Positions 1 to 64,000 of a DNA stretch of 64,000 nucleotides are shown piece after piece. Made by a program: the position numbers and the translations under genes. Origin of the DNA: Asterochloris sp. CNOR1 (taxonomy: Eukaryota > Chlorophyta > Trebouxiophyceae > Trebouxiales > Trebouxiaceae); assembly GCA_963969365.1 (NCBI GenBank), contig OZ017750.1, positions 3,658,001-3,722,000 of the forward strand, given 5' to 3'. Each line of letters starts with the position of its first letter. The stretch's first letter is position 1. The notes below the pieces were generated by a model. The model made no database searches. It was not told where the DNA came from and saw only the letters and a list, made by a program, of their open reading frames with translations.

Positions 1-2471
1 CGCCCCCAGAGCGATGAGCCAAGCAAACGCTGCGGACCACACAAACTTTCACATGCAGGGCGCAACCGGAACCACACTCCCAAGCGCCCTTAGTCCAGTC
101 GGCATAACAGCTGCTGCAGGCAGGCCGCACACGCCTCTGCATGGAAGGCCACACCGCGCAGCCATGCTGGGGAGAGGCAGCCCTTGATTAAGACCATGCA
201 GCTTTGTGAGGCAGGCTTCAAAAGCTCCGCACCCTGAGCAATGCCATGCACATCGCGCAGAGCAGGAAGCACTGGACAGGAGCAGGGAGCAGACACTGTT
301 TGCCGGAAATCCTGTCACAATGCAATTGACCACACCCCAGCCATGTGCACCTGAGCTTGTCGGGCTTGCCCTCAAAACGTAGCAGCGTGGGGTCGCGGCA
401 CTCTTCTCGATGGAGCTGCTCCCAGTCCATCACGCGCTGCCATGTCAGCTCGTTCATGGCTGCAGCACAGTGCTGCCATGGGATCAAGAAGAGTGGCTGG
501 CACAGCACCAGCCGTGCACTGAGTGCCAGACTGAGATAGGCAGCTGCAATGATGAAGCACAGCCCTGTGACAAGCGAAGACCTGAGCGGCTGCCCGCTGC
601 TCCAGCACGCAGACCAAGCTGAGGAAGGCAGCTGCCAGTGTGGCAGACCTTGAGGCGTGCACTGCCTTGGGCAGATGCCTATCGCTACAGGGCCCAGCTG
701 AGACAGACAGCTGCAATTATGTGGCAGGCTCTGTGGCACATGACGATCTGTACCCCGGAGCTGAGATGCAGGCCCTGCTGGTGTGCATGCACTGTCACAG
801 GCACTGCGGCCAGCACTGCGGGCAGGCACAGCAGGTGCGGGCTGTCCACAGGCGCGCTGGAACAGCAGGCGCAGGTCCAGTTGGCAAGTGGCCACCTGAG
901 CATGCGCTGGCTGCCAGCAGGCATGCTGGAACAGCAGGCACAGGTCCAGACTAAGAAGCAGGAGCCTGCACCAAGCCACTGACTGCAGATGCAGCCCACA
1001 GTACAGCAAATGCTGTAAGCAAGTTGAGACGAAGAGCCAGCCTGCACAAAGCCATTGGGTGACACCAATGCAGCCATACAGTACAGCAAATACAACAAAA
1101 GGTGCACAGGGCAGTGCACCAGACAGTGCAGCTCAGGTAACGCTACAGCAGCTTACCATTGCATGGAGGGCCTGAGGCCTCAGTCACAGCACACTGCAGG
1201 ACTGATGCACAGCAAGCACCACCAAACCAGCAGGTGCTCACTGTTGTGGGCGTGCACGACTGCATCCATGTCGGCCTCTGTCACGTCATCGCCCTTGCCC
1301 TTCCGCTTGAGGGCTGCATGGCAGGGGAAGCGGGTTCTCACAGCCTGAAGTCGTGCAAGTTGAGGCAGCCACAATGTTGCCTCAGCCTGTGTCGCTGTGC
1401 GGCAGCAGAGCAGGCCTTGGCGCCCCAGGAGCATCCTGGGCACACTTGGGATGGCTGCTGTCAGGTTAGCACCCTTGCAGACCCCCACAGAGGTGCATGG
1501 CAGGGGAGAGAGGAGTGTGGCCTATGAGAAGACGTGTGAGAGCGAAGGCACCTGACCGTGCGAAGGGTCAACAAGGATAGTTTGCTTGGCACTAGCAACA
1601 AGAGAATTCGAACGTGACTCTTAAGCATGTAGAAGCACCCACAGCTCTCCAGGGAGTACATGAGCCAATGTTGCAGAGCCCTTGCGCCACAGAGAGCAGC
1701 GGCACCAGGCAGGGCAACAGCATCAGTGGCTGATGCAGGAACAGCCACATCCTGGCAGGGCAGCGCTGCCCTGTTCACAGCCAGAGCTGTCCCTTGCACA
1801 GCCACATGGGCAATCTTTTCCCTGTAGCCTCACTGGTGTAGAAGGCCTCAGGAGAGATATGCTCTCAGCCAGGCAGTCGCAGCGCTTGTGCAGTACGGGC
1901 AGGGCGTGCCAGCGTGAGTGGCTACATCTGTCTGAGCAGCAGGCAATACAGCCTTGCAGACAGCCTTGCTGCCTTACGCATGCAACCAATAGTGGCCACT
2001 GCTGTGCCCAATCAGACAGACAGCACTGCCCCTCTCCAATGACAGCGCTGTGCAGTGCAGCCAGTCTGAATTACTGCATCATCCAGAGCAGCAGGCAGGA
2101 CAGCCTGTAGGCTCACCATTGTAGAACATCTGGGGGGAGGGGTACACCCAGGTGGTGTCTGTGCCGCCCTTACGAATGCTGGAGGCCATGCGGTCCGTGC
2201 TGATCAGTCTGCGCTGCCCTGAGCAGGGCTGCTGGTTGGCCTCTGCAGGCATGTTGTTGCGCGGGTCCAGGCGGCCCCATCCTGACAGCAGAGATGAGGG
2301 CAAGCTGCTTGTGGAGGCCTGCCCTGAGCTGTCGACGCGCTCGCTGTACACATTGTATACTGCTGGGTTGCGGTACTGCTCAGGTACAGGGCAGCTGCTG
2401 TCTGTGGCCTGCTGCTGGGCTGCAGGTCCCACATGCAATTCTGCCTCGTCACGGCTCTGGGAGGTCCCCAT
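1..2471 (-). CDS. HCCS: Holocytochrome c synthase (cytochrome c heme lyase), 5' part
   Basis: Attaches heme to the CXXCH motif of cytochrome c in the mitochondrial intermembrane space (system III). Three exons are visible: 2471-2117, 1313-1242 and 459-351; the phases fit and donors and acceptors are GT/AG. The start MGTSQSR at 2471 is chosen; an in-frame ATG at 2492 is the alternative. Exon 1 has a Cys-Pro heme-regulatory motif (SCPVPEQYRNPAVYNVY), an NNMPAEANQQP block and the family signature WVYPSPQMFYN. Exon 2 gives ALKRKGKGDDVTEADM. Exon 3 gives MNELTWQRVMDWEQLH and LLRFEGKPDKL. These line up in order with plant, algal and animal HCCS. About 178 residues are present; the C-terminal part with the heme-ligating histidine (LPFDRHDW region in the family) should lie beyond base 1. 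I found no further exon in 1-350. Head-to-head with the prolyl hydroxylase. Confidence 0.93.
852..1089. repeat. Decayed tandem repeats in HCCS intron 2
   Basis: Two overlapping sets of direct repeats lie in the 782-bp intron between exons 2 and 3. A block of about 30 bp centred on ctggaacagcaggc is at 852-882 and again at 921-951. A second block ending in cacagtacagcaaat is at about 961-1012 and again at 1033-1089. Nothing here reads as a gene. Confidence 0.6.
1314..2116. other. HCCS intron 1
   Basis: 803-bp intron (minus strand) from the GTGAGC donor after codon 118 to a CATGCAG acceptor. No coding or RNA feature seen on either strand. Confidence 0.75.
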
Positions 2472-2829
2472 CAATTGGCAAAGGGAGCTCAAAGCCTTTT
2501 GCTAAAAGGACGTAATAGTGGCAATGCTGCCGGCAGTTAGCTGCAAACGAAATGGCTGAAGCGCCACAAACAGATAATGAAATTGTAAGCGATTGGCGCA
2601 ACTTTGCTGTGTCTGCTCCTGCTGCCATCTGAGCTGCCACAGCTGTGAGAGCTGCTTACCAGCCATATCCTGCCAGAGGCTCCTTGCCACCCCCTGCTTC
2701 ACAAGGTTGCGCCAGGTGGCTCCACAGGCTTGCTGAGCCACCTCCGAGGATCCAGGCCATCCCCTGGACAGGCAGCAACAGTGCATGCAGCACTGTCCTT
2801 CCCTTGACAACTGCCTGAGCGCGTCTTGG
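2472..2829. promoter_or_regulatory. Head-to-head promoter region, HCCS / prolyl 4-hydroxylase
   Basis: 358 bp separate the two divergent start codons. This must hold both 5' UTRs and both core promoters. I see no convincing TATA box. Inferred from gene arrangement only. Confidence 0.5.
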
Positions 2830-6857: not shown

Positions 6858-7259
6858 AGATTGATGTAGTGGTCTGGTCTGTGCTGTTCTCTATCCTCCA
6901 TCCCCTCTGTTTGCTGCAGCCCCTCAGTCTCTGCAGGACCTGTGAAATGATTTCATCCAATTTACTGTAGCGCATGAATGAGGAGCAGCAATGTCTGCAT
7001 TGCATATCAAGTTCGTTAATGCTGGCATGGGGTAAGAGCCCCATCTTTTGAAAGTTGACTTGTCTTCTAGGGGAAGTTGAGAAGGAAGCTGAATTTCAGC
7101 AGGCCGATTGATTAACCAGGGCTGTTCAGCATTGCAAACAGGGCAGATGCAACATAGGAAACAATTCACCATCCTGGAGCAGCAGCATCTGCTGAGTCAT
7201 TGTGAGGAAGAGACACCCCACCATCAGCAGAACCACAAGGGCCGGGGGTTGTGCACAGC
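6858..7259. other. Convergent 3' spacer, P4H / Lin0512
   Basis: 402 bp between two convergent stop codons; holds both 3' UTRs. No gene, RNA or repeat recognised. Confidence 0.6.
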
Positions 7260-8286: not shown

Positions 8287-8929
8287 TACGGGACGAAGTC
8301 GCCTTGTTGGGGCTCTTCCCCTGTAGCAGATCCTCGTTGCTGAGATCTCAGCCTGCCGAAGACTGCCAAATTTCATTCCATGCAGAAATAGAAAGCAACT
8401 CAATGATTTGGAAGTCAAGTTCAAGTCAGTCAAGGGACGCCATACAGCTGCAACCACAAATTCAAGAATACTAAAGCTGGGGTCCGGCTTGCTTTCTTAC
8501 ACACTCTGCATAATCTGCTATGCAGAGAGACGTGTGCTTGCACCACCTGAGATGCGGCACCTGCAGGAGCCTTGCTGAGGGTCAGCAGACCACCCTCAGC
8601 AATGGACAAAAGATGTGCCCGAATGGCCTCCACCTCGACCCCAGTGAGGCTCGACAGGAGGGCATCTCCACAAAGTTCGCAGACAGGAGGTGGCATATCG
8701 CGCAGGTAGCTTATTATGACGCCAACCACTGTGCCAGCTGTCCCCGTCTAATTTGCCGCGCCAGAGGCGGCTCTGCGCCTCCCCTGGCCCTCTGACTGAT
8801 CCCCTGGGAAGCAGGGTGTGTGGCAGACAGGGGAGAGAGGGTTCCGTGCCTATCCTGTACATGAACAGTTTCTGGACATGTCACTACCCTCATTAGCCTG
8901 CAGGCTTCCAGCTTTGCCTGACTTTGTAC
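8287..8929. other. Lin0512 / CCR4 divergent spacer with an ambiguous exon-like block
   Basis: On the minus strand 8730-8557 reads without a stop and has coding-like composition (it includes PPPVCELCGDALLSSL and IRAHLLSIAEGG), with AG acceptors just upstream and a GTGCCG donor after it. Its exit phase does not join the Lin0512 exon at 8320, so it may be a separate exon, a 5' extension through an unseen exon, or chance. On the plus strand the same block starts with an ATG at 8602 and reads a Ser/Thr/Pro-rich stretch, but its phase does not fit CCR4 at 9050. Unresolved. Confidence 0.3.
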
Positions 8930-11900
8930 ATGTCAAGTCCACCTGACCCGCTGTACTGGCTGTACTGCGCTGTACCTGCTCATCATATACTGTGCAGCCT
9001 GGGGCATTATGCAATCTCTCACTGTGCCGTGCTCCCTGCCCTGCTGCAGACCAGATCAGGGCAAAGCAGAGCCGCCACCCTCACAGAGCGAGCGGAGTGG
9101 GATGTGCGGATCATGACATATAACATTCTGGCAGAGGGCCTGGTGCGTGGGGGCTGGACTGGCATGTGCCTGGCGCACCCTGCCTGCATGCGGCTGCCTT
9201 ACAGCTGGCAGTCCCACCCCCACAGGCGGGCCCGTGGGCCTCAGTGGCTCCAGGCTGCCTCGAACTTTGAAGCCAGCCTGTCGTGACGTGTCATGCTGTT
9301 TGGGAGCACTGCAGTGTTGCTTTATTGCGAGGCACTGCATTTGCCACACAGCTGCTGCTGGGGGCGTGAATGTACGCCAGCCAGGTGGCAGCCATGCCTG
9401 TGCCTCATGTTGGAGCAGGAAGAGGGGCGCCAAGTGGTCCCCCTCTCGAGCTGCGTGATACTGGCGCCGATGATCCTCTTCAGTGCCTGTTGCCAGGAGG
9501 CACCATGCTCCTCATTTCTGGGCTGATGTCAGCCCTTGAGCTGCGGCTCCTTCAATTCAGCCCTGGGAGACCAGCCAGCTGTTGCCGAGGAACTTGCCAG
9601 CATTGTATGCTCAGCAGGAAGCATCAGCAGTGTTTTGCACATGCAGGCCATGCGCCAAGGCGCTGCCATTATGCCAGTTCTTGTCTCACACTCCTTTGCT
9701 TTCAGCCTGAGGAGTGTATGCAGGCACTGCAAGGAAGAAGCTGAGACCGAGAGCTGCTGCTGCATGAGGCTGTCAACAGCTTTGGCCTGCTGCGCTGCGA
9801 GCCATCTGCAGGTATCTGGAGGCCCTCTTCTGCCTGTCCAGCCGACTCCATGCTGCCTGCTGCAGGCTTCCATGCATGACACGGGGAGCCCCGGCACGCA
9901 AGGAGCTACGTTGCCAGGTCACTCCCTCACAACTCAATACTTTGCCCATTCATGCAGTGCTGCAGACCATGGTGCAAGGTGGTGTCTGCAGGCAACAATG
10001 ACACAAGATTGTGTGCCTCACCCGTTCCTGGGCCTGTTATTCCCACTCACCACTGCTTTTAGACCGGTCCCTTGGGGGGAAGCAGGCACTTCTTGACTAG
10101 TACAGGCATTGCAGTTACATAAAGGATGTGCTGCCTGCCGCAGGCTAGTGCGTCCAGCATCACAGGCATCTGTGATAGCTCAAGGGGTGTGCTGCCTGCT
10201 TCAGGCGAGCGCACAAGGAGAGCTGTCGTGTCGAGCGGTCTGATGCCTTGCATTGAGGCAACCAGGCATGCTTGCCTGCCTTGCGCAGAGATGGGTCCAG
10301 TACTATTGCTCCCGTCAAGAGCCATGGGGTCTCGCTAACCCAGATCTGCTGCCTGCAGGCCACCACACATGGGGAGCTGCAGTACCATCTGGTGCTGGTA
10401 CAATGCAGGCAATGGTGCCTGCCTCAAGGACGTGTTCCTCTCCTGCAGGCCACAGCGCATGGGGAGCTGTTGTACAAGTCGGTGCCCCACTGGTGCTTGC
10501 AATGGGAGTACCGCTGGCCGGGGCTGCTGGCAGAGATTCGGCACTACCAGCCAGACGTGATGAGCCTGCAGGAGGTGGACCACATGGATGAACTAGAGGC
10601 TGCGCTGGGCCCCCTAGGGTGAGTGACAGCGCGAGAAGTAGGCCACCAGGGGTGCTGAGGTGACTTGGGAAGCTCTGAGCAGGCCAGAATGGCCCGGCAG
10701 CTCTTGGGCTGCTGCAAGGTCAGGCAGCAGGGGCATTTTCTGGCATGGAAGTTGAACCATGGGGAGTGCAGTTGGGTCCTACGTGTGCCCCAGCTGAGGA
10801 GCTGCAGCCCGACTGGGAGCAGGCCACCTGAGCCGCACTGCTGGGGTCCTGGGGTGAGCCAGTGATTGTTTGAGGACTGTGCTGGGCATGACAAAAGCAG
10901 TGGACTTCCTTGTCACGGCAGGCACGTGCCGAATATACTTTGAAAGGGGAATCTGGCTGCTGGGGCAGGAAGCAGGCATGCTCTTTCAGAGGGCAATGGT
11001 GTGCATCCCTCGCATTTGACTGCAAGCTGTGTGGAGGCTGCTGCAGCGAGTGTGGGCGGCATTTGCCATGAGGCAGTTGCTGTGTTACATCCCTGGCCTG
11101 ACTCCGAGCGGACCACGCAGTGACCCTGTGGAGGCCATGCTCTGCCCCAAACTGAGATGCAAAGCCGGGAAGGACTCAGGTCCAGTCCTCAAGGGATGGC
11201 TTTCAATGGGGCGTGTGCTGGATTGAAGTCGTACTGTGGGGCAAGCTGTCGTGTGGTCGCCATTGGAGTCCGTCATTGCTGCTGGTGAGGAAGCTGCATG
11301 ACGGCCGCCCCTTGGGCCGCTGGGCTGAGGCAGGGCACGTCTCAGCCTGCACCCATCATGATGAGCAGGTGGCTTCATCGCTGCATGGGCAACCTGCCAG
11401 ATGCTGTTGTGTTTCCTCAGCCAGTGGTAGGGCTTGCCAGGGGGATAGCAAATGTCCTGCAGCTGGGGTGAGTTGAGGCACATGTCACGGTGCTCCTGTG
11501 AAGGCCAGGCAGCATAGACGCTGGGCCTGGAGGCAGCCTGCTGGCTGAGCCCACATGGAGAGCTGAGCTGGCACAGCATCTTTACCCTGCAGCACACCCT
11601 GGCAGCACAGGGGCGGCTGCCACACTGGAGCTGCTGAGCTGGCATGCTCTGGGGGGCTGGCACACGGGCATGGAATCTTGTGCGAAAGATCCTTACGCCA
11701 GCAGCATGTGTCAGCCTACGCCTGATCATGGGCTGCAACGCGTGGCATGCAGCCGTCTACACAGCGTGCTGTGCCCCTGCAAACACGGCACGCTGCAGTG
11801 CTCTGGAACAGCCCCTGCCTGAACAGATGGCCAGGCCGGATGTTCGCATGCTGCAAGATCTGTGATACTCGGGATTCTGACAGGTTCCTGGATCTTGCAG

Positions 11901-14900
11901 GCCTGCTGGTCAATGAACGCCAACAATCGCTGCCTGCAGCATATAGTCTCTCACCATGCTGTTCCCCACTGCACACAGGTATGAGGGTCGCTACGCCAAG
12001 CGAAGTGGAGGGCGGTCGGACGGCTGTGCAACCTTTTGGTAAGTTCCTTTCACACTCTGTGCGTCTGCTGCTGCTGATGCTGCTTTGCAGACAGACACTA
12101 TATGTCCTGCTGCCCTGAATGGAAGGAGGGAGAAGGGACTCAGTGAGCCCCCTGGATTGTGGCCGTGCACTGCTGGCTGGGGATGAGCCGCCCTTGGCTT
12201 CTCCCTTTGTGACATGACTGGGCTCATATCAGCATCTGCATGGCTGCAGGCGCAAGGACAAGTTCTGGGCAGTGGCAGTGGATGTGATCCGCTTTCAGAC
12301 GTACAACTTGCAGGACAATGTGGCCATCCTCGTCCTCCTGCACCGCAAAAGTGAGTGCTGCTTTGATATTTTCACCAGGAGAGAGCAGCTGGCAGAAGCT
12401 GGCTGCCCAAGTCTGGCGGCATAGTGTTCCTCAGGACAGCCAATGTCAGCATCAGCATGGAGTCCAGCAGCCTCGCTGGCAGCGTGCTGGGCAGCAGGAG
12501 GGTGTCAAATCACATAAACCTGGCTCATATCAGTGCGCTACTGGTAGCCTGCTGCCTTACAGTGCTAGTGTCAGCCAGTTGACAGGGCAGGCATACGCCT
12601 TCAGGGTGGATGTGATGGCTATGCACCTTCAAAGACTCACTGCCAAGCTGGAGGAAGGCATCATCCCTGACGCAGTCAGGGTCTGTGCTGACCTCATGGG
12701 AACCCACGAAGCGTTGTCTCCTCAAGCTGCCTCACCTCCAATTGTGCAGGTGGTGATCCAGATGATGATGAGGACGAGCCCCGCGATGGAGCAGTTGAGG
12801 TCAACATGACTGTGGACCAGTCGGGGGATGTGAGCTTGCTGTCAGGGGAGGTCCACAAGTGGTTCATGCTTCATGCGGAGCTGCCCAGCGAGGCCAGGAT
12901 GGACCCTGCGCTGCTGGTGGCCAACACCCACATCCTGTTCAACCCCAAACGGGGAGACATCAAGGTGGGTAGGGCAAAGCTTTGCTGGCTTCCTGTGATC
13001 TGCTGCACATGCTCTGCACTCCATTTCCCATCAGACCCAACTGTCAGAAGTTGCTGCGCTGTTGCATGCATGTCCTCTGGCTGGCCAGCCTGACTGGCTG
13101 CTGTCCGAGCAGTGTATGTCCTCAGAGTCTGCTCCGGTGAACCGCAGCAGCGCTCTTTTCAAGCCCACCCCTCAGTCAGCAGATCGCCCACAGCTGAGCG
13201 CATTGAACGACATTGGGTGTAGCCCAGACCTGAACACCTGCCTCGATGTTGCTCTGGCTAGGGCCAGTCTCCATCCATGGAGCCATCTGGTCTGCAGATT
13301 GCGCAGGCACGGACGCTGCTGAGCGTGATGAACGACATCGTGCACAAGTGCAATGGCAACGCGCTGGCCATGGTCATGGGGGACTTCAACTCCACGCCTG
13401 AGAGCGCAGTGTACCGTTTCATCAAGGCTGGGGAGCTCGACTGTCAGACTGTCAGCCGCAAGCTGGTGTCAGGCCAGATACAGGGCACCTCGTGGCCCGC
13501 TGCCATGGAAAAGGTCAGTTGCTGGTCAATCCCAGCCTTGGAAGGTCATTTGGTGTGCAAGTGTCTTCAGCACAGCACAGGGCACATATTGCCAGCTGTC
13601 TTTGACGGGTGGGTGGATCAGCCGGTCTCAGGACAGATCAGCTGGTCCGCTGCCCTGAAGGCTGTGGGTGATGCGAAGCGCAAAGACTTGTAAGGTATCT
13701 CGGGGTGCAGCGTCCTCAGAGTCAGGATCAGGGCAATACCTTGGGTGGTGCTAATGGGTAGAAGACGTCAACAGATGGCCTGGCAAGCCAGTGCTTGCCT
13801 GATGCCGAGTCTGTCCTGGCGATCTGGAGACCTGTACAGAGCTTGAGCACCACCCGTGCAATTGTCAGGGCTGCGCCCTTGCAAAAAGGCGGCCTTGTCA
13901 AGCTTGATGGCAGCCTGAGTGCCCCCCTGGTTGTTGACCTCCAGCCTTCGGACCGCTCTGCAGATGGCTCGGCAGCGCAGCGCTCCCCCAGCGCTGAGTC
14001 TGGAGACTGTGGAGGAAGAGGAGGCTACATCGCCGTTGTCCACAGGCACCTCTGAGCTGGGCGAGTCCGACAGCCCTGAGCGCCTGAGCAAGCGGCTCAA
14101 ACCCTTCTCAGGTGAGGACAGCCAACGGGGCATGCAAGCTGAGGGCTGGTGCGTAATTTCAGAGCCAATTGCCTGGCTTTGAGATTCCTGAGTACGTGCC
14201 AAAGACAGGGCTGGCCCGTCGCAGACCAGACCTGGCTGCTGCAGACCTGCCTGGCCTTTGCAAAGCGACTGTGGCTGCCTGCACAGAGGATGAGCCATTG
14301 CAGATAAGCTCTGGCTTTCTGCAGACCAGCCTGACCAGCTCCTGGCATATGAATCTGGGCCAATCAGCCTCCACACTGTGGCAGATATTGAGGCTCATCT
14401 GGTCCTGACAGCAGGTTGTTGGAGCTCTCTCTGCTCTGTACAATACCATATGCAAGGAGAAGCCTGAGGCTCTGCTCTGCATGGCAAGCAGGTGGTCTCA
14501 ACCCTGCGTGAAGCACTGAGTGCTTCTTTGCAGGTAAGGGCATGGCCCATGTGGTGAGCGAGCCCCATCTGGCGGGGCTGGCAGGGTCTGATGAGGAGGA
14601 AGAGGGTGACTCTGCCACGGAGGCGGTCAGGTCGCGGGGCTCCTTTGATGAGGAGCGCCGCAACCGCCACATCAACGGCAGGTGAGCTGCCAGGGCTGCT
14701 GCGCTACGTCAAACTCTTGCCAGAAGCATCACAGCTGCAGGCCATGTGGCCGCATTGCATCCAGAAAGGAGGGAGCAACCTTGCAGCAGTGACAGCAGCA
14801 GCGGCAACAGCCTTCATCAAGCATGATGTTTGTATCAAGTTTCCATTTTCATGCTGTCTGTCTATTCTGAAGAGAGTGGCAAGGCTTCATGTTTTGCAGT

Positions 14901-20604: not shown

Positions 20605-22319
20605 GCACAAACCTCGGCTGACGCTGCAAGGCCCTAGGCAGCGCTGCGCCTCTCTTGGCAGGCAGAGTCGCCCAACGCTGCGTGATGTCTGTTCCACGTT
20701 GCGCACGCAGCTTAGAGCGGCCCACACTGTCTGGCCTCTTGCCAGCGGCAAAACCCAGATCAGCCTCCCTCACACCGCACACACTGCACACACCGTGCTG
20801 GCCGGGCACTGGGGCTGGCCAGCTGGCCCCGTTCCACTCCTCTGCCAATTCCAGCACAGGCACTCATCCAATAATTTGTGGCCTGCAGCAGAAAATGAGA
20901 CAGGCAGGTGCAGCCGAGCCCCGCTTTTGTGCCCCGCTGCGTGACAAGAGCTCACGCTGAATTAGTCAGTAGGTTCTGCCTGCAGCCCTGCTGCCTGTGA
21001 AGGCCTTTTTCCAGGCGTCGCCACAGACTTTCTGATGTATTCTTTTGCACAAGTCCCGTACTGTGGCCCCTGATGGGCCTTGGGTCATTTGAGCTCCGGT
21101 CGCCCTTGGATGCTGTGCCCAGCAATTCAACTTCGCCGCGATACGTGCCACTTGTGAACAGTCCCCAATCTGAGAGAGTATTCTGAGAGTGTACACAGCC
21201 CTGAACATGAACATCTCCAAAGAAATGCCTTGGGGAATGCCTGCGGTGTGTTGAAGATTATACAGGACTGCAGCTGGTGCTTGAGCCTGTTGGCGACTCA
21301 GAGATCAAACATCCATTTATGACATTGAGGCGACACAGAATTGCCCAAGGCCAACCCCAGCATGGAGATGCGCCTCCTGATGGAGATGGGCTGTGCAAGC
21401 GATCAGGCTGACATGAAAGTCAGAAGCTGAGACGTACAATCAGGCCCCATGATGCGCATGTCAAACAAAATGGACCCACTCCAGATGAAGCTGCATTGTT
21501 TGTCTCTGCAACTTGGCATGGACATGCACTGCTGGCAAATCGTTCTGCACTCATTTGCTGACTTTCCACCAACCTGAATATCTCTGCTTGCTGATCACAT
21601 CAAACGAGGTTTCAACAGTGTAGGCTGCCTCCTGAGTTCCCCAATCAAACAAGGCAACAGGGTGAAACATAGTCCCCAGGTAGGCAGGGGTGGTGAACGG
21701 CTGATGAGGCCAGGCTTCAGCATTGATTGTCGCATGATCCCCTCTCTTGACTGTAGAGGCAGATGTCAACCTGCCGGCCAAAGATCTCCAGAACGTCAAG
21801 GGCAGCACTTGCAGTTGCAATGCAACACAGTCAGATGGCTTGCATTAGCTGCAGCCACGGGCGGTGTCAGCATTTCAGGGCCAAGGATGGCCTCCACCAG
21901 CCGCCCAAACTTTGTTGGGCAACCACTCACGCTCCCTGACTATATACTGGCCTTGAAACGCAGGCTACTGCGCAGGCAAATTCCCTGGGAATCTGCAATA
22001 CTGTGAGAAGACACTGGGAATGACCAAGAGCTGATGCGATCATGTGATTGGGACAGGCCAGGTCTCGATGCACAGCATGAACATGTGTAAATCTGGAGGG
22101 ACCGTCTGCTTTCCTTAAATTTGACCAGAATGCATGCATGCGTTGACTGCCGACATGAAGCCCCCAATGCTTCCTGTTGATCCAGTCGTCCAGTCACGGG
22201 CCCTAATGACGATGCTTCGAAGGTCTGGAGCGATTTAGAGAGGCCCCAAATTGTGTTGTCCTGCTTCATCAGGTTCTTGGTCAATGTACTGATGCCATTG
22301 TACTGACTGTGAGGCAGGC
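20605..22319. other. Spacer between CCR4 and the coiled-coil gene
   Basis: Holds the CCR4 3' UTR (from 20605) and the promoter and 5' UTR of the coiled-coil gene (up to 22319). The minus strand carries exon-like blocks described separately. No repeat or RNA gene recognised. Confidence 0.5.
20966..21990 (-). CDS. Possible minus-strand gene, function not recognised
   Basis: Three minus-strand stretches look coding. One at 21925-21800 includes KFGRLVEAILGPEMLTPPV and ALDVLEIFGRQ. One at 21750-21574 (acceptor CTCTACAG, donor CAG|GTTGGT) reads RGDHATINAEAWPHQPF and PVALFDWGTQEAAYTVE. One ends at a stop at 20966-20968 and reads VRDLCKRIHQKVCGDAWKKAF. I could not join them in one consistent phase and recognise no family. 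It could be a small gene convergent with CCR4 or a degenerate one. Confidence 0.3.
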
Positions 22320-44673: not shown

Positions 44674-44871
44674 AACGTACGGTTGGACACCAGCTGGGTG
44701 GCAATGGCCACTAGCTCTGCCTTCTATACTTCAAGCTAGCAACCTCTCATCATGACTACTTACTAGAGCAAGAATCAACAGCACCGAATTGTCTCTGCCA
44801 ATGCAGCCTCTGAGGCATACTGACAACAGAAAACAAGCAACTCTGACTACACAGATGCGAACTGGATGAGT

Positions 44872-50800: not shown

Positions 50801-51138
50801 CATCCAGGAGGTTCAGGGCTCTGGCAGCCTCCCAGAGCTGGGCTGATTCTGGGTCTGCAGCTGGGGCGGCACCGCCGGCGCCTGACGCGGCTGGTGGTAT
50901 CTGGCGCGACCTGTCAGCTGCCTGCATGGTGTGCTGCAGGGTTGAAGCTGCTGTCAGCTGCTGGATGCACAGCGTACAGTGGAAATAGTAGAGGTGTTCC
51001 TAAGGCGGCAGGTGCCTGCACATGGAAGGCATTTACCTTGCCAGAGAGGCCAGCCTGCTCAGTGTTGCCTGTTACAGACCCATTTGTTTGAGCATCGCAG
51101 ACTCCATTCTGCAGGTGGATGTCTGAGTGGTCCAGCAT
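44872..51138 (-). CDS. Protein kinase with altered catalytic loop, LKB1/STK11-like features
   Basis: Exons 51138-51076, 50933-50174, 49723-49473, 49132-49032, 48527-48333, 47522-47411, 47003-46886, 45993-45910, 45636-45470 and 45105-44872 join in phase to 694 aa. The first about 390 residues are Gly/Ala/Pro-rich and probably disordered. Kinase motifs: P-loop GVGAYGIVF, CAVKVV (ATP Lys), VEREAAIL (helix C Glu), GVAHKDIAPKN, HLLDFGVAEL, SGTIPYMAYEI, ADMFSAGVVLYEALTG and HRMTAEQALQHPYL. HRD is HKD, the loop Lys after Asp is Ala (DIAPKN, not DIKPxN), and APE is AYE. HKDI and DFGVAE are as in LKB1 (HKDI, DLGVAE), so an LKB1-like origin is a reasonable guess. Mg-binding Asn and DFG Asp are kept, so activity is possible. 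Head-to-head with GGH. Confidence 0.88.
46184..46213 (-). repeat. Decoy copy of a kinase exon start
   Basis: On the minus strand CTGCAG then a sequence reading DGPVQE copies the real exon start at 45993 (DGAVQEM). The copy is followed at once by GTAAGC, so it has the form of a tiny decoy exon. Confidence 0.55.
47560..48300 (-). repeat. About 130-bp intronic repeat, six diverged units
   Basis: Units at about 47575, 47715, 47845, 47972, 48100 and 48225 (plus coordinates) share a tgctgtacaggggccc core, a catggcag-ca segment and a cttgcc/cttgccaag end. The unit resembles the 3' edge of the adjacent kinase exon (48333-48400, ctgctgtagaggggcccctc), so the array probably grew from that exon edge. 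Confidence 0.7.
48814..49045 (-). repeat. About 102-bp repeat copying a kinase exon donor
   Basis: tgcacagcttgcc (48817), tgcacagctcgcctgaa (48918) and tgcacaggtcacctgaag (49021) start three successive units; the last spans the real donor of the P-loop exon (ends 49032). Confidence 0.65.
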
Positions 51139-54805: not shown

Positions 54806-57800
54806 TCAGTGAGTGCCTCTGCTGTGCCGGTGCTGTTGAGTGCGGCTGGGGCCCTTGCTGTTGGTACGTAGCCAATCTCGAGCATGAAAGACATCCATGC
54901 GCTGTGCAAGGGCCCTGCAGCATGTCACAAAAGTGATTTTGTTGACCCTATCTGGTTCCAAGCCTGGTGGTGTTCCAAAAATCACAACACCGTTTAAGCC
55001 AAAAGTTCTGTCAAGAACACACAATGTCCAGAAGGTGGATGTTGGGGGAGCACTGGTGCTGGGGCTGTGCATGTCTCAAAGAGCTATCTTGGCAAATGAG
55101 CGCCAAGACAGTTTGCATGGAGCCCTCGCATCCAATGCCTCTGGAAAGAATTGGGATGCTGAATGGGTCCGCCCTGGCTGACTGATCTGGGAGGGGGCAT
55201 GTGCAAGGCTGCCGTGTATGCCAGCAAAGATACTGCCAACCAGCAGGCTAACCAGCCAGCCTGAGCTGTGGACGCCTCCCTGACAGCAGCAGCCTGCAGT
55301 GGAAGCCGACCGGCAGCTGCAGTTCCCTCAACACTGTAACATTGCACCAGCAAGCCAGCTGCAGCAGCACACCTGTCTGTTCTGCCTGACTGCCCAGACC
55401 TGAATGCACACTGCACTGTAGCCAGTGGCCACGCATAAACACCTACTGCAGGTGCCGCGTGAGCAGCTGCATGAAATGTCCCCCAGTCTCAAGTTGCTCG
55501 TTTCCACAGGCTCACACAAAAGCAGCTGCTGCAGCCACCGCAGACCAGGATGTTACATCATCAAGCTGTTTGAAACATGCGCCTCCTTCCGCAATGCTCA
55601 CCAGTACTAAGCTCTCTATTATCTGGCCACTTCTAGCACCCACCTCCCACAGATGGTGCCAGCGCTTTGCACCATCTCCTGTGCACCATGTCTTCTCTGC
55701 AGCCTCTGAGCACCCTGACCCCGCCTGAGGAGCACCATCACAGTGCCTTCCCGCACCTCAGGCGGTGCAAGATCCTGGCACTGGTGTCACCTGGTGGTCA
55801 GATTCTCATCGTTGGTGAACAAGACCATGCGCTTCCCCAGCTCGGCGGCCTTGTGCTCCCAGTGGGCCGCACACTGAAGGATGTAGTCGTCCCCAATGTG
55901 GCGATCCCGGTCTGCCATCAGTGGGGGCAAGAAGGCTAGCGGATCGGCAGGCTCCCCAACCTCTGGCTGCACAGCATGCACGCACTGTCAGCAGCAGTCA
56001 GCAGTGCATGACCGACGGCAGGAAGGCCAGTGGATTGACCAGCTTCCCCCACCCGCAGCTGCAAAGCAGAGGTCATTGTCTGGTGGACTGCATAGCTGCT
56101 TGCAAGCAGTGTACATGGGATAGTGCAAAGTTCGGGACGCCACCTGCAGCCTGAAGTGCCCGCCGTAGTCCAAGGCCAGCGCCCTGTAATGCAAATTCAG
56201 CCAGCCACTCGCAGTCATCAGCCTCTCAAAACCTCACCTGCAGCCTGAGCCCTTTGTGGAGCTCGAGTTGGGGCAGCGCAACAAATATCAAGCGCAACTC
56301 TAGCCGTGCCAACCTGCAGCCTGAAGCGCCCCCGGTACTCGGACGCCAGCGCGCGGTGCACAAACAGGCAGACCTCCTGTGCGATGGCGGCCCGCTCGCT
56401 GTCGTGGTGCTTGTCGTCCTTCAGGCGGTTGAGCTCCAGGTTGGCCATGAATGGGACCACCTGGAACATGGACGCCTCCTCCAACAGCTGCACCAGGGCA
56501 GCATGGTGGGTGGGCGATTGTACAGAAAAGGTCCCTTCCAACTCCTGCTAATTGTTGCATACTTTGACTATGCTCTGATGTCTTGCAGACTGCAGGTTGT
56601 GCCGCAAGAGGTGGAGCCCCCCCCCAGCGGCTGCAGCAGGGTAGAGATTCATGGAACGCAGGACGAGCACGCCTTTCAAGGAAGCCACACGAAGGTGGAT
56701 GCCTCTCCAACAGCCGAAACAGAGTGGCAAGCAGTGATGCATTGCCTGTACTCTGCAGCTGGTGCGTGAGCCTCAGAGCTGCCGTGGCTGTGCAAGGAGC
56801 ATGCACCAGGTTGTCTGTGGAAGGATGACAATCACTGACACACATTGCAGCAGTGCACTGGCTGTTTGGCGAAGTCACTGTTTGCGCAGCATCACTGAGC
56901 ACTGGGAGAGGTACCCCCCTGGAAGCTTCAGTCAGTGCAAAACCACTCCAGCATCAGCAGCAGCCATGAGATGGGACCGCTCAACAGTACGTTGCCATGC
57001 AGCCTGGGCCAAGGGTTCTGACAAGTTTCCAATGACGACACAGGCATGAGCAGCACAGGTGATGCCTGTCAAGGCCTCGCGTGCCCACCTGCTCAGCCAC
57101 CCACAGGTCCTTCATGAGCCCACAGGTGTCCCACACCACGATCCAGTTCACGCCCTCCATGCCGGTCACGCCCTGGAACACCTCCTTGAGGCAGAAGGCT
57201 GAGGGCACATATGAGAGGCCCTTATGCAGGAGAGCCTGCAGCAGCAGCAGGGCTGAGCCAGTGCAACAGCATGCCACAAGTGTGCAGGCCACCTCCAGAT
57301 CAGCTTCACTCGATCCCAAGCAACCACGAGCGCAGCGTGCACCCCCCTTAGGTCATAGCGGCGCTTGCAGCATTACATGAGACGCAGGATGGCAGCCTCG
57401 CGTAGCCCAACCCTAGACCCAGCTCCACCCACTCTCCAGCGCAAGATGGACCACTTCTGGTCAGGGCGGGACTGCTACTGCCTGGCAGTCTCCTGAGGCG
57501 CATCTGCAATTCTGGCTCTGGCTGGGGCCCCAGTTACCACAGTGCAGCCTGCAGCATTGTACTGTGAGGTACACAAGGGACCTGCTTCAGCTGTGAACTG
57601 AGACGCAGCTGTGACCCACCTCAAGAGCCGGCTCCACCCGACCACCAGCTGCCACAAGCGCAGCGTGCACAGCCTTGGGGTCAGAGCTTGGCAGGCACCT
57701 CCCCAGGTAGGCGCACTTGACCCTCAGGGGCTGGTCCAGCAGCCACAGCATCTCGCTGCTGTAGTAGGCCTTGAGCAGAGCCTGCAGGCCACCGATGGGG

Positions 57801-60800
57801 CCTGAGACCTTCAGCAATGCCTGCAGAAAACCTAAGGGCTGGGAAGACCGGCAGAGGCTTCAGAGGTCACAAGTGTCAGGCAATCAGCAGTGCCTGCAGT
57901 GAGACATGAGGCTGCCATGGAGCAGGCACCGCTATGCGGCTCTGCAAGAGACGTGCTGTCAGGCGCGTGTATTTCCCGCCGTCAAAGGCCCTTGCTCCTG
58001 CCCAAGACTACTGCAGCTGAGTGGCAAGCAGCAGTCTGGACACCTGCCTGTGCATGCGTCCAACACACTGCAGTGCAGTCTGTCCTGCCACCTGGGCTGG
58101 CAGCCTGATTTGCATTTCATCTAAATGCGTTTCCACTTCACAAGACTGCCGGCCCAGCTCATGTGTGCCACAGACATCCTGGAGAGCAGTCAGACTCTTT
58201 GACACAGAGTGGAGCACAGGGGTTGCCTGATGTGTGCAACATGTGCCGCCCTGAGGGGGCAGAGTATGAGCCGGATGCTACTGCAGCAACAGTAGCATGT
58301 GCTGCAGGTCGTTCAGGCCACACCTGCAGGGGCCGGCCGTACCCCACCCGCAAGCAGCCCAAGCAGCTGCTGCCACCCAACTCGTCAGCACTGACAGCCC
58401 AGAAGGCGGCTGGCCATGTGCATCTGCGCAACACGAGGCCCCCAGGGAGGTGTCAACCCCTAAACCCTGAATCCTGAATCCCAGTGCATCACCTGCAGGC
58501 CGCCCAGCATGGAGAGCGGGTCCTCTGTGGGCTGCAGGGCGAGGCCGTACCCCGCGTGCAGGGCCCGGATCTTGCGGCGCAGCTTGGGCAGCAGCTCAGC
58601 ATCTGCAGTGCCGTCCTCTGCACCCTCACGCTCAGGGCTGGAGCCGCGCGCCTGGCCAGCTGCAGGGCGCAGACCCAGCCTGCAGCAGGTCTCACACCAC
58701 ATCTTCTTCAGATCTGCTCCGAGGCCAGCAGCCTGCACACAGACTCTCTGCAGGGTGTGCGAGACCACACAGTGCAGGCCGCTTTCCCCACAGTCCTGCC
58801 TGCTGCACACAACTCCGGATGGGGCCCCCTTTCATCCTTGTCCCAGCAGCCTGCACCTGCACCTGCACCTGGTATGCAGATACAACACAGGCCACCTTCC
58901 CTACACCCCCGCCTGCGTCATGCAACTCCAGCTCTGCTCTTGTCCTTCATCCCCTAGCACTCTGCACCTGCACCTGCACCTGCACCTGCACCTGCACCTG
59001 CGCCTGCACCTGCACCTGCAGGGTAGGCATTCAAGCCCTCCCTGCCTGGTGCTGACCTGGGGGCGGAGCCCACACGCCGAGTCACCTCCAGGTCTGCCCC
59101 AGCGGCGACAGCTGTGCGAGGGGAGCACGCTTTCAGACTCCCACCGGGGCTTCCCGGCTGTGTCGAGGAGTCATGACGCCCTGATGCGCTCCCCTTGGAG
59201 CGCTCTGGCTGGGCGGCAGCCTCCCGGTTGGCTTCGCTCGCGAGGCGGCTCATGGCTGCCGCCTGCACCAGTCCACTGGGTACACAACGTGGCACAGCTT
59301 GTGTCGCTCCAAATGCTGTGGGCACTGCATGCAGTGATGGCCACCAACCCTGTGTCCCTGCGCCTCCCATCTGCAACTCCAGGGCAAGAGGAAGCAGACT
59401 TTGTAGCACGGCCTGCTGCGGTTGAGGTACAAGCCCCCTGGAGCTGGCAGGTTCCGGCCCCTTATAGATGCGCCTCCAGCCACTGGCTGCGAGCCCTCAG
59501 ACTGGTGGAGGTGTCAACACCACCATTTGCGAGTCAGTGCTGTCACATCAGCACTCACCCAAGCCCTCATTCCACTCCAGCAACCATGTTCCCTCTAAGG
59601 TGGCAAGATGTGTGCCCCCTCAAGGCCTCTGCTGGGCTGCACCTGCCTCAGTGCATCCCAGACCCAGGTTCAATGGTGACACCAGGGCAGCAGGCAAGAC
59701 CTCCCGGCAGGACAGCACACCCCAATCAGCTGCGCCTTTCTCCTCTCCCTCCGGCTGGACCCACTTTTCCCCTGCTGGCTCATGCAGACAGCTGAGCTTC
59801 TGTACAGGCGGGTGACTGCGCCGTGCCTCTGCAAAGCACAGCACGCACCTGCCATTGTTGCGCATGGCCAAGTGCTCCTGCCCAGCTGACTCAGCCTGGT
59901 TCAAGGCCACCACACACCTGGACGATGCACTGCAGCGCGTCGCATGCACCAAGCTCAGGGCAGCCACCTGCATCCTGAGCCTTACCCTCTGAGGCCACAG
60001 TCACACAAACCACCTGCTGCACGTGACCCCTCAGAGTGCCCCTGGGGTCAGTGAACGTCAGCGCAGCAGCCTGGCGCCCCTGCGTATCGATAGCGCTGAT
60101 GCATGCCACTGCTGCACAGGCACCCTCAGAGGCAGAGTACATGCAGCTCCCACCAGCCTAAACCTCACACCCTAGCACCCACCAGCTTGCGCCCCTGCGC
60201 ATCCTCCTCCCCTTCTGCCACGTCCCCAGAGCTGCGGCGAGTGGAGTGCCCTGAACCTGCAGTTCGCCGCCCTTTGATGATTGCCAGCCAGTCATCATCG
60301 TCCTGCCAAGACGCACAAGCCAGGGCCTGTCAGTGTGCAGCAGACCGTTCATGGAGTTCTTGATGACTGCCAGTCAGCACCGCCGTCCTACCAGGCAGCA
60401 CCAGCTGCGGCAAGCTGTGTGGCTGCAGGGAGCTGCAACGCAGAGCTGGCAGCCAAAAGGGTCAGCCCTGCCGCTGGATGGCACGCAGAGCCATTATGTC
60501 TGGCTTCAAGCAGACAGCACGGCACCAGCTTGTGCATGCAGTCAGCATCAAGGCTGTGCATGGCACCCACATGTTTATGATGGGCAGGTATAGAACGAGC
60601 AGCAGGACCCTGCTTTACCAGGAACTGTTGAGATGGTCCGGGAGGGCTGCACTGCGTGGACACCTCCACGTGCCTGAGGACCGGTGGCGCACACCAAAGC
60701 TGCAGGTGGCTGCCCCTGGTGAAGCTGCTGCCCCATGTAGGTGCACGTGCTGTAGCCATGTTTGCCAGCCGCGGCACACACACCCCTGAAGATGTGTTTG

Positions 60801-63487
60801 GCTGCCAATCGAAAGCTTTCGCTTTGCCTCCACTTCACGATTTCAGGCCTGCCCAATGGATTTACCAGCCCAATTGAATTGGCCTGCTCACCAGCGCAGG
60901 TGCCGCCTGTGCCGCCTCACCCTCGACCCCCGCCTGGCCCCTGACCCCCGGCCCTCGCAGCTGAAGCTCATTGCGCAGCTGCAGCGCCTGCACTTGCTGC
61001 ACCTGCAGGCCCAAGCGGATGTGGCCCACCTCAGGTCTCACACAAGCAATTGCTTAAAGCCTCAATCACAGAAGAAATGCAATCGCAACAGCTGGCATGG
61101 CCTCCATCTCATGTTGTCCTGGCCTGTACATGGCACAGAGTTTCGGCAGTACGCCTGACAGCAGGACATGCTGGATGCAGCGCTCAGCCAACCGACCTGC
61201 AGGGCCTCCCGCAGCTCTGTGGCGGTGGCCACCTCCCGCCGGAGAGCTGCCTCTGCAGCTGCAAGCTGCTGCCGCAGGAGCTGCCCCTCTGCCCTCTCAG
61301 CTGCAAGCTGCTGCACTGCATCTGCCTGCTGGTCTACGGGAGTGGCTGGCGGTGTCGGCTGACCATCTGCTGGAGCCGCCTGCCGGTCTGTCCTGGGCTG
61401 CTGCCCAGGCACAGCGGCGTGACTCAAATGCCCTCCAGCCGCCGGCTCGATGCCAGCGTGGTGGCGTCTGGGGACCACCCTCTGATGCTCTGAGGGGCCT
61501 GCCACACCAGCGGGCTCCCTGCACACGCTGCTGGGCTCGGCATGCTGCAGGCCACCCGACTGCCCAGTATCGGCAGCCGCCAGCTTGTACTCAGCTGCCC
61601 GACCCCCCCGCTGGCGCGGATGCGCCGGGGAAACCCTGCTGCCCCTGACCGGCTGCCACTGGCCCTGTCCCTGCTCCTCAGCCGCCGCGCTCCTCCTCTC
61701 CTGCTGCTCCAGGATCCGCACTTCAACATGGCCACCTGCACCGCCTGGTGCTCCCGCCACCTGATCCCCTGTCGCAGGCTGCCCTTGGGGGCTTGGCCTC
61801 TGCTGCTGCTGATGCTCTGCTGCAGGCGCCTGAATCGCTGGATCACCCTCCCCAGCACCCCGCTGCAGTTGCCCTGCCACGGGGAGCTCATGAGGGCCTG
61901 GTTTCTGCAGCACCAGAGGCTCTGCTGCAGGTGCCTGTGGCACTGCATTACCCTCCACCACGCCCTGCTGCAGTGTCCCTGCCGCAGGCTGCCCATGGGG
62001 GCCTGGCCTCTGCTGCTGCTGATGCTCTGCTGCAGATTCCTGAGGCACTGTGTCACCCTTGCCCTCGTGACTCGGCTGCTCCACTGCAGCAGAGCTCTTA
62101 CGTCTGTGGCGGCGCCTGGCAGAGCGGGAGGGTGAGGAGGCTGCCACGGCCAGCTCAGCCTGCATCTCCGGCTGCTGCTGCAGAGATGTGAAGGAGCCAA
62201 AGCGCAGCTCCCTGCACAGGGCACATCTTGCGTCACTGCCAAGGTGCAGATACGGATGAACTAGCAGTGAAGGCTTGCCCCTAAATGATGTGGAGCACAG
62301 CTCCCTTCCATCAAAACACACCCTGAGTGTACACCTAGGTTCAGACTGATTTGTTGAAGCTGTGCGGAAGCATGCGCCAGGGGCTATGCATCAGGCGCAC
62401 ATGCCATGCGAGTGTTGTGCCGGCTGCTCGCTGAGCAGGCTGTGCAACAGCTGTAGAGCGGCGATCCAGCAGCAGGGGCTTGTACGGCACTGGTGGGACA
62501 GCAGAGCCTAGCTCAGGGGTGCAAGCCATCACTGCAAGCTACTTTGTTGCCTGTCAACTATTGCTGATGGCCCTGACCGAAGACTTGCACCAGAAATTGA
62601 CCATCCACTGCTTTTCCGTGCTGCATTGTATGATCAATGTATGAAGGCCTTCTCAGACTTGTGGGCAAGTCTAGGGTCAAGGCCCCACACCCACAGAAAG
62701 CAACAGCCAGTGAGTGCAGATGCAGGCCCCAGTTGCCTGCACCTCTGCCCCAAACCCACAGAGAGTGGCAGCCAGCGAGTGCATATGCAGCACCCCAAGC
62801 ACTAGCTGCAAATGCGACGCAAGCAAGTGCACCTGGGCGCAACAGCTCCTTGGGGGCCGGCAGCATCCCCAACGCTGGCAGCATCAGTCTCATCAGCCTC
62901 CGAGTCGTGCTGTTCGGAGCCAGAGTCAGCGCCAAGCAGCTGGTCCAGACCGTGATGAACGCTCTTGCGCCGCTGTCGCCGCCGTGCAGCTCTGGAGCGC
63001 ACAGGGGCGCCCTGCTCGGGCTGCTGCAGGGCACCCTCGGGTGGGTTTCCTGCCTGCAGATATGAGAGGCAACATCAGGGTGCCGTGCCTGCAGATGTGA
63101 GAGGCAACATCAGGGTGCCCTCACTGCAGACATGAGAGGCAACACGTATGCAGAATTGAGGTGGAGAATGCTGGTGAGCAGCTTGCTCCGCAAGGAAGGA
63201 CCGCTGCGGCTGAGCAAGCCCGATGCAGGCCAAGCGATGATTGGTTGGAATTGGCTACCTCATGGACCGGTGAGCTGAGCTGTGCTGCCCCCACTTTGAC
63301 TGTGGCAGCAAAGGTCTGGAGAGTCCATTGCTGAGCCCCCTTCCGATGGGCTTACTTGTGGTCTGATTGCCTTAATGCCAGATGCCTGCCTGGCCTCATC
63401 GGGGTGCTTAGCTTGTTTGCTGATGACGGTCTCAACGTCCTCATCTGGCACCTCTGCTGCTGAGTGCCTGACTTGGCTGGTTGACAT
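54806..63487 (-). CDS. PIN-domain protein, SMG6/Swt1-like endonuclease candidate
   Basis: Exons 63487-63356, 63053-62833, 62235-61197, 61002-60892, 60302-60183, 59967-59849, 59437-59016, 58713-58493, 57820-57620, 57235-57089, 56487-56314, 55966-55791 and 54914-54806 join in phase to 1,063 aa. The N-terminal two thirds are low complexity: acidic and basic patches (RSRAARRRQRRKS), a CALC motif, Gln/Pro repeats, then a short helix-rich part. The C-terminal 170 residues form a PIN nuclease domain: NWIVVWDTCGLMKDL (first Asp), QVVPFMANLELNRLKDD (Glu), DRHIGDDYILQCAAHWE (third acidic), VLFTNDENLTTRALAQ (fourth), as in SMG6 and Swt1. All four acidic positions are present, so metal-dependent RNA cleavage is plausible. 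The start MSTSQ at 63487 is chosen; an in-frame ATG at 63535 is the alternative. A role in mRNA surveillance is inferred from the family only. Confidence 0.85.
56013..56258 (-). repeat. Decayed copies of PIN exon edges
   Basis: Within the intron 55967-56313 (minus strand), 56190-56142 reads RALALDYGGHFRLQ with a following GT, a copy of the real exon end RALASEYRGRFRLQ (ends 56314). 56065-56013 copies the next exon start (real 55966). A third weak donor copy is at 56233-56258. Confidence 0.7.
57310..57440 (-). repeat. Copies of PIN exon 57620-57820 edge
   Basis: 57310-57352 (gcgcagcgtgcac...) and 57370-57440 (tgagacgcag...agctccaccc) resemble 57635-57680 and 57599-57645, which span the real exon end and donor. 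Confidence 0.5.
58961..59020. repeat. Hexanucleotide repeat (cacctg)n at a 5' splice site
   Basis: About ten copies of cacctg/gcacct, read as GTGCAG on the transcribed minus strand. The exon 59437-59016 ends exactly where the array begins, so its donor is the first GTGCAG. A smaller patch of the same hexamer is at 58852-58870. Confidence 0.85.
60361..60393 (-). repeat. Copy of the PIN exon-5 start
   Basis: 60361-60393 repeats 60275-60307, the acceptor and start of the exon reading DDDDWLAII. Confidence 0.65.
61766..62060 (-). repeat. 105-bp (35-aa) coding tandem repeat, about 2.5 copies
   Basis: In the large N-terminal PIN-gene exon. Units begin AAEHQQQQRPGPHGQP, AAEPLVLQKPGPHELP and AAEHQQQQRPSPQGQP. 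Likely disordered Gln/Pro linker. Confidence 0.8.
62682..62790 (-). repeat. Intronic tandem repeat, about 68-bp period
   Basis: 62682-62724 and 62750-62790 share cccaca(c/g)a-agcagccag-gagtgca-atgcag. Next to the exon 63053-62833. Confidence 0.6.
63051..63153 (-). repeat. 34-bp tandem repeat of an acceptor, 3 copies
   Basis: tgcctgcagatatgagaggc and two near copies (63085, 63120). The first overlaps the real acceptor of PIN exon 2 (starts 63053). Confidence 0.8.
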
Positions 63488-63873
63488 ATGCCCCAGCACT
63501 GCCCCTGCTGCAATTGCCAACTGCATGCAAGCCATGAAGCAGTAAGCAAATGTAACCCATGAAGCAGTAAGCAAGCAGCGTTCGGGAATATGAGGGACCA
63601 GCTGGATGACAGGCCTGCTGTGGAAAGCCTTGCCTTGCGCAAGGCGCCTGCCATTGAATTGCCTCAGCTCTCAGCGCTTACACCGCAAACGACGCATGAA
63701 ATAGGTCATCTGACATGAATAACGCACATGAGGCAGCTGATGTCTGATCGTGGCATTTTGAAGCGCTGACGGCGTCATGTGAGCTTTGCCGGACAAGCAG
63801 AGATGCTTTCATGGGTATATAGCAAGTTGGAGTCAGTTCTGAGTGGTGTTCAGGCCCAGGCCTGAGCTTTGAC
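63488..63873. promoter_or_regulatory. Divergent promoter region, PIN gene / next gene
   Basis: 386 bp between the PIN start and a plus-strand ATG at 63874. It contains a small direct repeat (catgaagcagtaagcaa, 63532 and 63557). Confidence 0.4.
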
Positions 63874-64000
63874 ATGCAGCAGGAAGCAGTCACGGTTCCT
63901 GAGGCCATCAGCACTCCTGAGCATGGCATTGAAGGTCACGTCCAGGCACAGGGGGTGGTGGAGTCCTCCTTTCAGAAGCTCAGACGCAGTTGGATGAACC
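63874..64000 (+). CDS. Start of an unidentified gene, cut by the window edge
   Basis: Open from ATG at 63874 to the end, reading MQQEAVTVPEAISTPEHG and later SSFQKLRRSWMN. Composition looks coding, and the head-to-head position fits the gene pairing seen elsewhere. Too short to assign a family. Confidence 0.45.
   Translation, partial: MQQEAVTVPEAISTPEHGIEGHVQAQGVVESSFQKLRRSWMN

Follow-up and report, generated by a model that had tools for sequence, protein, structure and literature searches.

Small local duplications and decayed exon-edge copies in introns of the green alga Asterochloris sp. CNOR1

A 64,000-bp stretch of the genome of the green alga Asterochloris sp. CNOR1 (the window; contig OZ017750.1, here C5, positions 3,658,001-3,722,000) was found to carry, within its introns, decayed copies of nearby sequence, among them the edges of adjoining exons together with their splice sites. 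The same kind of copy was found in further stretches of this genome. Such copies are in local excess, lie mainly in direct orientation, are at most weakly enriched at exon-intron junctions and are less identical in their intron part than in their exon part. They are probably the outcome of ordinary small local duplication, which would be neutral in introns and lengthen them, the exon-edge copies being the subset that happens to straddle a junction.

Local direct duplications

Self-alignment of the window by gapped Smith-Waterman (match 2, mismatch -3, gap -5; offsets of 20-500 bp) yielded 214, 107, 60, 44, and 36 direct pairs at scores of 24, 28, 32, 36, and 40, respectively. Six controls, in which the same sequence was aligned at far offsets starting 1-12 kb away, gave 72-120, 16-28, 3-8, 1-3, and 0-1 pairs at these scores (at a score of at least 36, the offsets of 1, 2, 3, 5, 8, and 12 kb gave 1, 3, 1, 2, 1, and 1 pairs). 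The controls being far fewer, the local excess is clear above a score of about 30, and it sits mostly at periods of less than some 260 bp. The same excess, at a lower density, was seen in a 200-kb block of contig C1, and it therefore characterizes the genome rather than just the window; it was present in each other stretch sampled.

Within 344 kb, the 143 pairs obtained with a search range of 20-300 bp had a median period of 95 bp (quartiles 68-147), and their identity was spread continuously around a median of 81% (5-95% range 71-94%). The decayed copies of exon edges described in the original prediction are thus real, exceeding their controls and being graded in identity. When orientation was counted in 344 kb of sequence without gene models, 217 direct pairs were found at an ungapped score of at least 32 (arrays counted repeatedly) against 5-6 in far-offset controls. 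Local inverted pairs were in modest excess (9 against 0-2 at a score of at least 32; 31 against 9-14 at 28 or above), and an inverted-repeat mechanism was dropped on this account. In their direct orientation, in the closeness of their copies and in their excess over background, the pairs belong with the small tandem (local direct) duplications. Among pairs at least 90% identical, the period exceeded the copy length by no more than 5 bp in 10 of 21 (median 8 bp); a spacer was commoner in pairs of 75-90% identity (medians 44-55 bp).

Gene models and sampling

The window lies near the end of a contig of 3,793,022 bp in a genome of 56.4 Mb and 21 contigs. Genes were predicted by a two-strand semi-Markov gene finder self-trained on the genome sequence, every junction discussed here being an ab initio prediction and the ends of genes being uncertain. 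The finder converged on 76 genes with 575 introns in 304 kb, and the final set holds 693 introns in 364 kb (the window and stretches L001-L030). Its splice consensus was sharp (donor CAG/GTGAGC, acceptor CTGCAG/G). Internal stops were absent from 75 of the 76 predicted proteins, which on reading belong to sensible families, and all seven proteins or parts of proteins submitted to Pfam scored above the family cut-off (RBBP4/WD40, 2OG-Fe(II) oxygenase, protein kinase, peptidase C26, TruB, PIN, and exo/endonuclease). Known or probable errors of the models include, besides the 5' end of the coiled-coil gene (see below), probably false exons added by retraining in an array at 40676-41135 of the window, and decayed copies taken for exons in a WD40-like gene on L027.

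The 304-kb models underlie the junction overlaps in the window, the shift and analytic placement nulls, the frame of periods, copy coverage by intron length and position within genes. The 344-kb models underlie periods and identity, the strict exon-edge cases, the intron-gain test and the comparison of gaps with flanking and length-matched introns. The 364-kb models were used for the matched junction/interior ratio, the crossing of exons, splice-site words, the comparison of introns with one another and density near contig ends. Overlapping alignments of a single array count as several pairs, and the pairs are for this reason not all independent.

Exon-edge copies and decoy splice sites

Under a strict rule (at least 8 bases on each side of the junction, and at least 90% of the partner within the intron adjoining the crossed junction), 50 exon-edge cases were found in 344 kb at a score of at least 32, 28 of them at acceptors and 22 at donors. 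Ten of these lie in the window, one being in a fifth, small gene (7260-8286). The exon part of the 50 pairs was 81.2% identical and the intron part 76.9% (interval of the difference 1.1-7.1 points), as is expected if selection holds the real exon while the copy decays. Of 48 intron-plus-junction pairs from the 304 kb, 46 had their copy in the intron next to the junction that was crossed.

The statement that copies extend across junctions and leave decoy donors or acceptors is borne out by these 50 cases. Two copies were unmappable; in 37 of the other 48, the GT or AG of the decoy was intact, compared with 30.9 expected from the identity, and 22 of the 48 decoys scored better than the real site or at most 1 nat below it. 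The decoys are not visibly purged by selection, and those still intact are candidate seeds of alternative splicing, as the original prediction proposed. An array on the minus strand of L027 (5998-6269), in a gene judged WD40-like by eye, consists of about 3.5 copies, at a period of 78 bp, of an acceptor and the start of its exon; the upstream copies are decayed, several of them retaining a TGCAG acceptor.

Pairs with both copies in exons keep the reading frame, the period being divisible by three in 11 of 14 at a score of at least 32, compared with 22 of 71 pairs lying within introns. Multiples of three were not in excess among junction pairs (16 of 50 periods).

Copies also go with longer introns, as had been claimed. 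The median length of introns with and without a copy was 504 and 288 bp in the C5 block, 344 and 221 bp in the C1 block, and 346 and 216 bp in the interior of C5, respectively. Copy coverage of confident internal introns rose from 2.8% in those under 150 bp to 18.7% in those above 800 bp.

Duplication at junctions and within introns

In a matched test, the crossing of junctions by copies was compared with the crossing of interior points of the same introns, which was possible for 594 of the 693 introns, the other 99 being shorter than 100 bp. At a score of at least 32, donors were crossed in 28 and acceptors in 34 of the 594, the mean interior rate being 4.4%. The ratio of junction to interior crossing was 1.18 (95% interval 0.91-1.48), 1.09 (0.82-1.38), and 1.09 (0.79-1.43) at scores of 32, 36, and 40, and an earlier matched count on 504 of 575 introns had given 1.14, 0.97, and 0.97. 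Without matching, at score 32, the rates were 0.047 and 0.052 at the junctions and 0.039-0.077 across bands of the intron. The interiors of exons were crossed less (0.021-0.026; 646 exons).

The original prediction held that duplication is centred on junctions, and it took a lack of junction enrichment relative to intron interiors to count against this. Such is the result obtained from the junctions, intron interiors and exon interiors: the matched ratio is about 1 (1.0-1.2) with intervals spanning 1, and exons are lower, although cruder nulls, given below, disagree. A process centred on junctions is concluded to be absent, or to have a small effect at most.

Origin of the copies

Under ordinary local duplication, small direct duplications with periods mostly of 70-150 bp would arise over gene bodies, possibly through repair associated with breaks or nicks or through slippage. 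Those falling within an intron or straddling a single junction would leave the protein unchanged while the outer splice site (the first donor or the last acceptor) is used, and so would persist, lengthen the intron and decay. Neutrality would be the reason for their survival, and straddling duplications would occur about as often as those in the rest of the intron.

Several observations do not sit easily with so plain an account. Many pairs have spacers between their copies (medians of 25-58 bp for the main classes of intron and junction pairs), so that not all are abutting tandems. Copies are almost missing from the gaps between genes, which hold even fewer than the exons do; this speaks against plain neutrality everywhere. 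Two placement nulls also point to an excess at junctions. When positions were shifted circularly, 23.2 (standard deviation, SD, 4.6) intron-plus-junction pairs were expected and 48 observed at score 32, and 19.1 expected and 36 observed at score 36, with none of 400 shifts as high in either case. As a share of intron-plus-junction and intron-intron pairs together, the former made up 0.40 against 0.28 in the shifts at score 32 (2 of 400 as high) and 0.39 against 0.30 at score 36 (24 of 400). An analytic placement null predicted 30.3 (SD 4.3), 27.0, and 23.8 pairs at scores of 32, 36, and 40, where 48, 36, and 31 were seen. Together these cruder nulls give a 1.3- to 2.1-fold junction excess, the analytic null alone 1.3- to 1.6-fold. 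The shift null is held to be biased, because a partner may fall on the exon side there, while surviving duplications are expected to resolve on the intron side. The excess over the analytic null would fit slower divergence of pairs in which one copy is exon, held by selection.

The scarcity of copies between genes bears on a second explanation, namely that the duplications stem from a mutational process specific to gene bodies, linked to transcription or chromatin, and that gaps are spared since the process is inactive there. This is possible but rather doubtful. Pairs with both copies in gaps numbered 1, against 14.8 (SD 4.3) over 400 shifts. Copies covered 0.0037 of the bases of 80 gaps (interval 0-0.0084) and 0.074 of those of the flanking introns (0.055-0.092), and at matched lengths of 150-2000 bp any copy was present in 3 of 65 gaps compared with 116 of 489 introns (Fisher p = 1.5e-4). 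With gaps defined more widely, as reaching from the last strong exon of one gene to that of its neighbour, coverage was 0.014 vs 0.089 in confident internal introns. Exons, despite being constrained, exceeded gaps in coverage in each of four stretches. Base composition is not supported as the cause of the empty gaps, the contrast being present in five of six G+C bins (introns with both flanking exons scoring at least 6); the lowest bin (below 50% G+C) holds 17 introns totalling 4045 bases, likewise without a copy.

Against a process confined to gene bodies stands the shortness of the gaps (median 430 bp for the C5 block, 329 bp for the C1 block), which are probably made up mostly of untranslated regions and promoters, perhaps kept free of insertions by selection. 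Constraint on these short regions is the simplest reason for the empty gaps. Furthermore, gap coverage reached 0.025 in the last 20 kb sampled (introns 0.093), gene ends are uncertain, and the fall-off towards the ends of genes is weak in C1. Over 61 genes, coverage was 0.039 in the first intron, 0.089 in middle introns and 0.026 in the last, a trend that is suggestive only; in the C1 block alone, bootstrap values for it were 0.065 at score 32 and 0.127 at score 36 (50 genes), and correspondingly 0.019 and 0.039 in 13 strictly chosen genes.

The density of pairs at a score of at least 32 was 8.75 per 10 kb near the end of C5 (104 kb including the window; C5:3648001-3752000) and 8.5 near that of C1 (20 kb; L029-L030), compared with 4.05 in the interior of C1 (200 kb; L001-L020) and 5.75 in that of C5 (40 kb; L025-L028). 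This approximately twofold density, from two ends and two interiors, is a likely reason why the pattern stood out in the window. A wider proposal, that local duplication is gene-body-specific, acting along transcribed coding regions, nearly absent from gaps and stronger near chromosome ends, that it is a main force lengthening introns, and that decoys are a by-product which is not removed, might hold, but the odds are against it.

Less likely again is a junction-centred process in which splice-site words (CTGCAG and GTGCAG in the original prediction) seed duplications at junctions. It would account for the excess under the two placement nulls; the matched same-intron ratios (0.97-1.18) go against it. 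Among the acceptors of the final 693 introns, TGCAG is the ending of 83% and CTGCAG of 53%. Relative to base composition, CTGCAG is over-represented 8- to 15-fold in each of the three classes of region (introns, exons and gaps). As CTGCAG is the acceptor consensus, the supposed breakpoint words are the 3' splice site of this genome. For 244 ends of copies in intronic pairs, TGCAG was near 12.3% of the ends, 8.2% of points within copies and 8.9% of intron points. TGCAG is thus slightly high at copy ends, but CTGCA was rarer there (12.3%) than within copies (17.9%; background 8.5%), and the idea of a breakpoint word is not clearly supported.

It is very improbable that the copies are remnants of intron gain, whereby exon segments were duplicated and the intervening part became an intron. 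The expected AGGT-type signature, in which the surroundings of donor and acceptor match in register, was present in only 2 of 622 introns and absent from the other 620, and intron gain is rejected as the general cause. In the two introns the surroundings of the donor are nearly identical to those of the acceptor (scores of 61 and 40, while none of 3110 mismatched pairings reached 28), but the better of them reads better as an array of acceptor and exon start inside a longer intron. In several cases in the window, moreover, the period is far below the length of the intron (for example 68 bp at 40494). A derivation of the introns from a mobile intron element (introner), whose internal repeats they would carry, can be discounted almost entirely, nothing having been found in its favour and an all-against-all blastn of the 693 introns (E<1e-6) having returned one pair of alike introns between genes and four within one gene, which leads to its rejection at this sampling of 364 kb.

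Genes of the window and their exon-edge copies

Four genes of the window carry the junction-overlapping alignments. A CCR4-type exo/endonuclease gene with 21 predicted exons lies at 8613..20604 on the plus strand (Exo_endo_phos, 2.6e-9 for the first 287 aa) and is followed on the same strand by a coiled-coil gene, known from its gene model, with 39 predicted exons (21362..42866) and an uncertain 5' end. The minus strand holds a protein kinase gene with 10 predicted exons (44872..50927; Pkinase, 7.5e-41) and a PIN-domain gene (55248..64000; PIN_4, 1.8e-7), the latter predicted to extend beyond the end of the window. An open frame at 22293-22985 (plus strand), which has a plausible N-terminus, points to a start of the coiled-coil gene there and to its predicted first exon (21362-21418) as spurious; the 5' end of this gene is probably misplaced in the model.

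At least a dozen cases had been proposed in these four genes, and 15 alignments overlapping a junction at a score of at least 36 were indeed detected, all in exactly these genes, although in six of the 15 the overlap is only 3-7 bases. They lie at 10352, 15602, and 17578 in the CCR4-like gene, at 34640, 36617, 38989, 40156, 40463, and 40731 in the coiled-coil gene, at 45967 and 48804 in the kinase gene and at 56139, 60274, 61767, and 63043 in the PIN gene. At 38989 and 61767 both copies cross a predicted junction. In five pooled offset controls of the window at the same score, 0 of 109 donors and 0 of 109 acceptors were crossed.

The clearest example is in the coiled-coil gene (plus strand), where 67 bp at 40463-40529, comprising 32 bp of exon end, a GTGAGG donor and 35 bp of intron, are repeated at 40531-40597 with a tandem period of 68 bp and 93% identity; the copy is within the intron and its donor GT is intact. 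Upstream in this gene, a real acceptor with its exon start is copied 117 bp farther upstream, within the intron; the copy is decayed and carries the decoy CCCCCAG/G (40156..40339). At 38989..39228 (period 122 bp, 73% identical), 84 bp of exon end and donor are matched by a downstream copy, part of which is intron in the gene model and part a further exon. An exon end (32 bp and 3 intron bases) is copied 94 bp downstream in the intron at 83% identity (36617..36744). A tandem duplication of 134 bp (27176..27434, 82% identical) lies wholly within a predicted intron of this strand and is not related to a junction, and the array at 40676..41135 (plus strand), with pairs at periods of 25, 44, 156, and 289 bp, is mainly intronic. 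The coiled-coil gene also contains an in-frame coding array with a 42-bp repeat, about 81% identical along 389 bp (35097-35527, plus strand).

In the CCR4-like gene (plus strand), an exon start (37 bp, with 7 intron bases) is copied 90 bp upstream in the intron at 82% identity (10352..10485), and a donor edge of 5 exon and 31 intron bases recurs at 65 bp with 94% identity and a 29-bp spacer (15602..15702). An acceptor and exon start at 17578..17711 has a copy 93 bp upstream (78% identical) in which the decoy AG is lost. A period of 101 bp extends over a donor of the kinase gene (48804..49040, minus strand; 77% identical), the decoy donor having GC in place of GT. In the PIN gene (minus strand), the acceptor edge of an exon has a copy at 86 bp (60274..60405; 77% identical) with an intact decoy AG, and an array with a 35-bp period over another acceptor (63043..63144; 87% identical) also has an intact decoy acceptor.

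The sole similarity between introns of different genes links an intron running from 63054 of the window to L022:103 with one at L022:1008-1494 (70 bp, 84%, inverted). Each is predicted to be the 5'-most intron of its gene, and the two genes are divergent neighbours: the PIN gene and a gene on L022 that is presumably helicase-like.

Significance and comparison with known systems

The presence of exon edges in introns suggests that no mechanism directed at junctions is needed; such a pattern is what random local duplication would leave under selection on the protein. In practice the decoys matter, as some are as strong as real sites and can mislead ab initio gene prediction. If the contrast between introns and gaps holds genome-wide, it would provide a direct way to test mutation bias against tolerance as the cause of intron growth. 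For rice, small tandem duplications at DNA breaks were reportedly described by Vaughn and Bennetzen in 2014. Among the matches listed from the openly licensed literature (titles and openings of abstracts), no account of exon-edge copies in introns on a genome-wide scale was seen, nor, among the matches listed, any report that such duplications are lacking between genes, both being weak evidence of absence.

In the human genome, small tandem duplications have been described as the commonest kind of short insertion (<100 bp), and natural insertions from humans and plants have led to their being attributed to error-prone repair of breaks (PMC8355091). The Asterochloris duplications resemble these in being short, direct and local; they differ in that the evidence for them is decayed copies in a single assembly, in that many have spacers, and in being mostly intronic. 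Intron gain under the AGGT exon duplication model (Rogers, 1989; Hellsten et al., 2011, as summarized in PMC4974935) is alike in that a local duplication interacts with splice sites and the protein is unaltered. However, that model requires the surroundings of donor and acceptor to be copies of one another, which here applies to the two introns noted above. In the RdRp gene of potato, a tandem duplication over an intron-exon boundary made a new intron (PMC4974935); there, too, the duplicated segment crosses the boundary and brings splice signals with it, whereas in Asterochloris an existing intron would be lengthened and the exon-edge copy left to decay.

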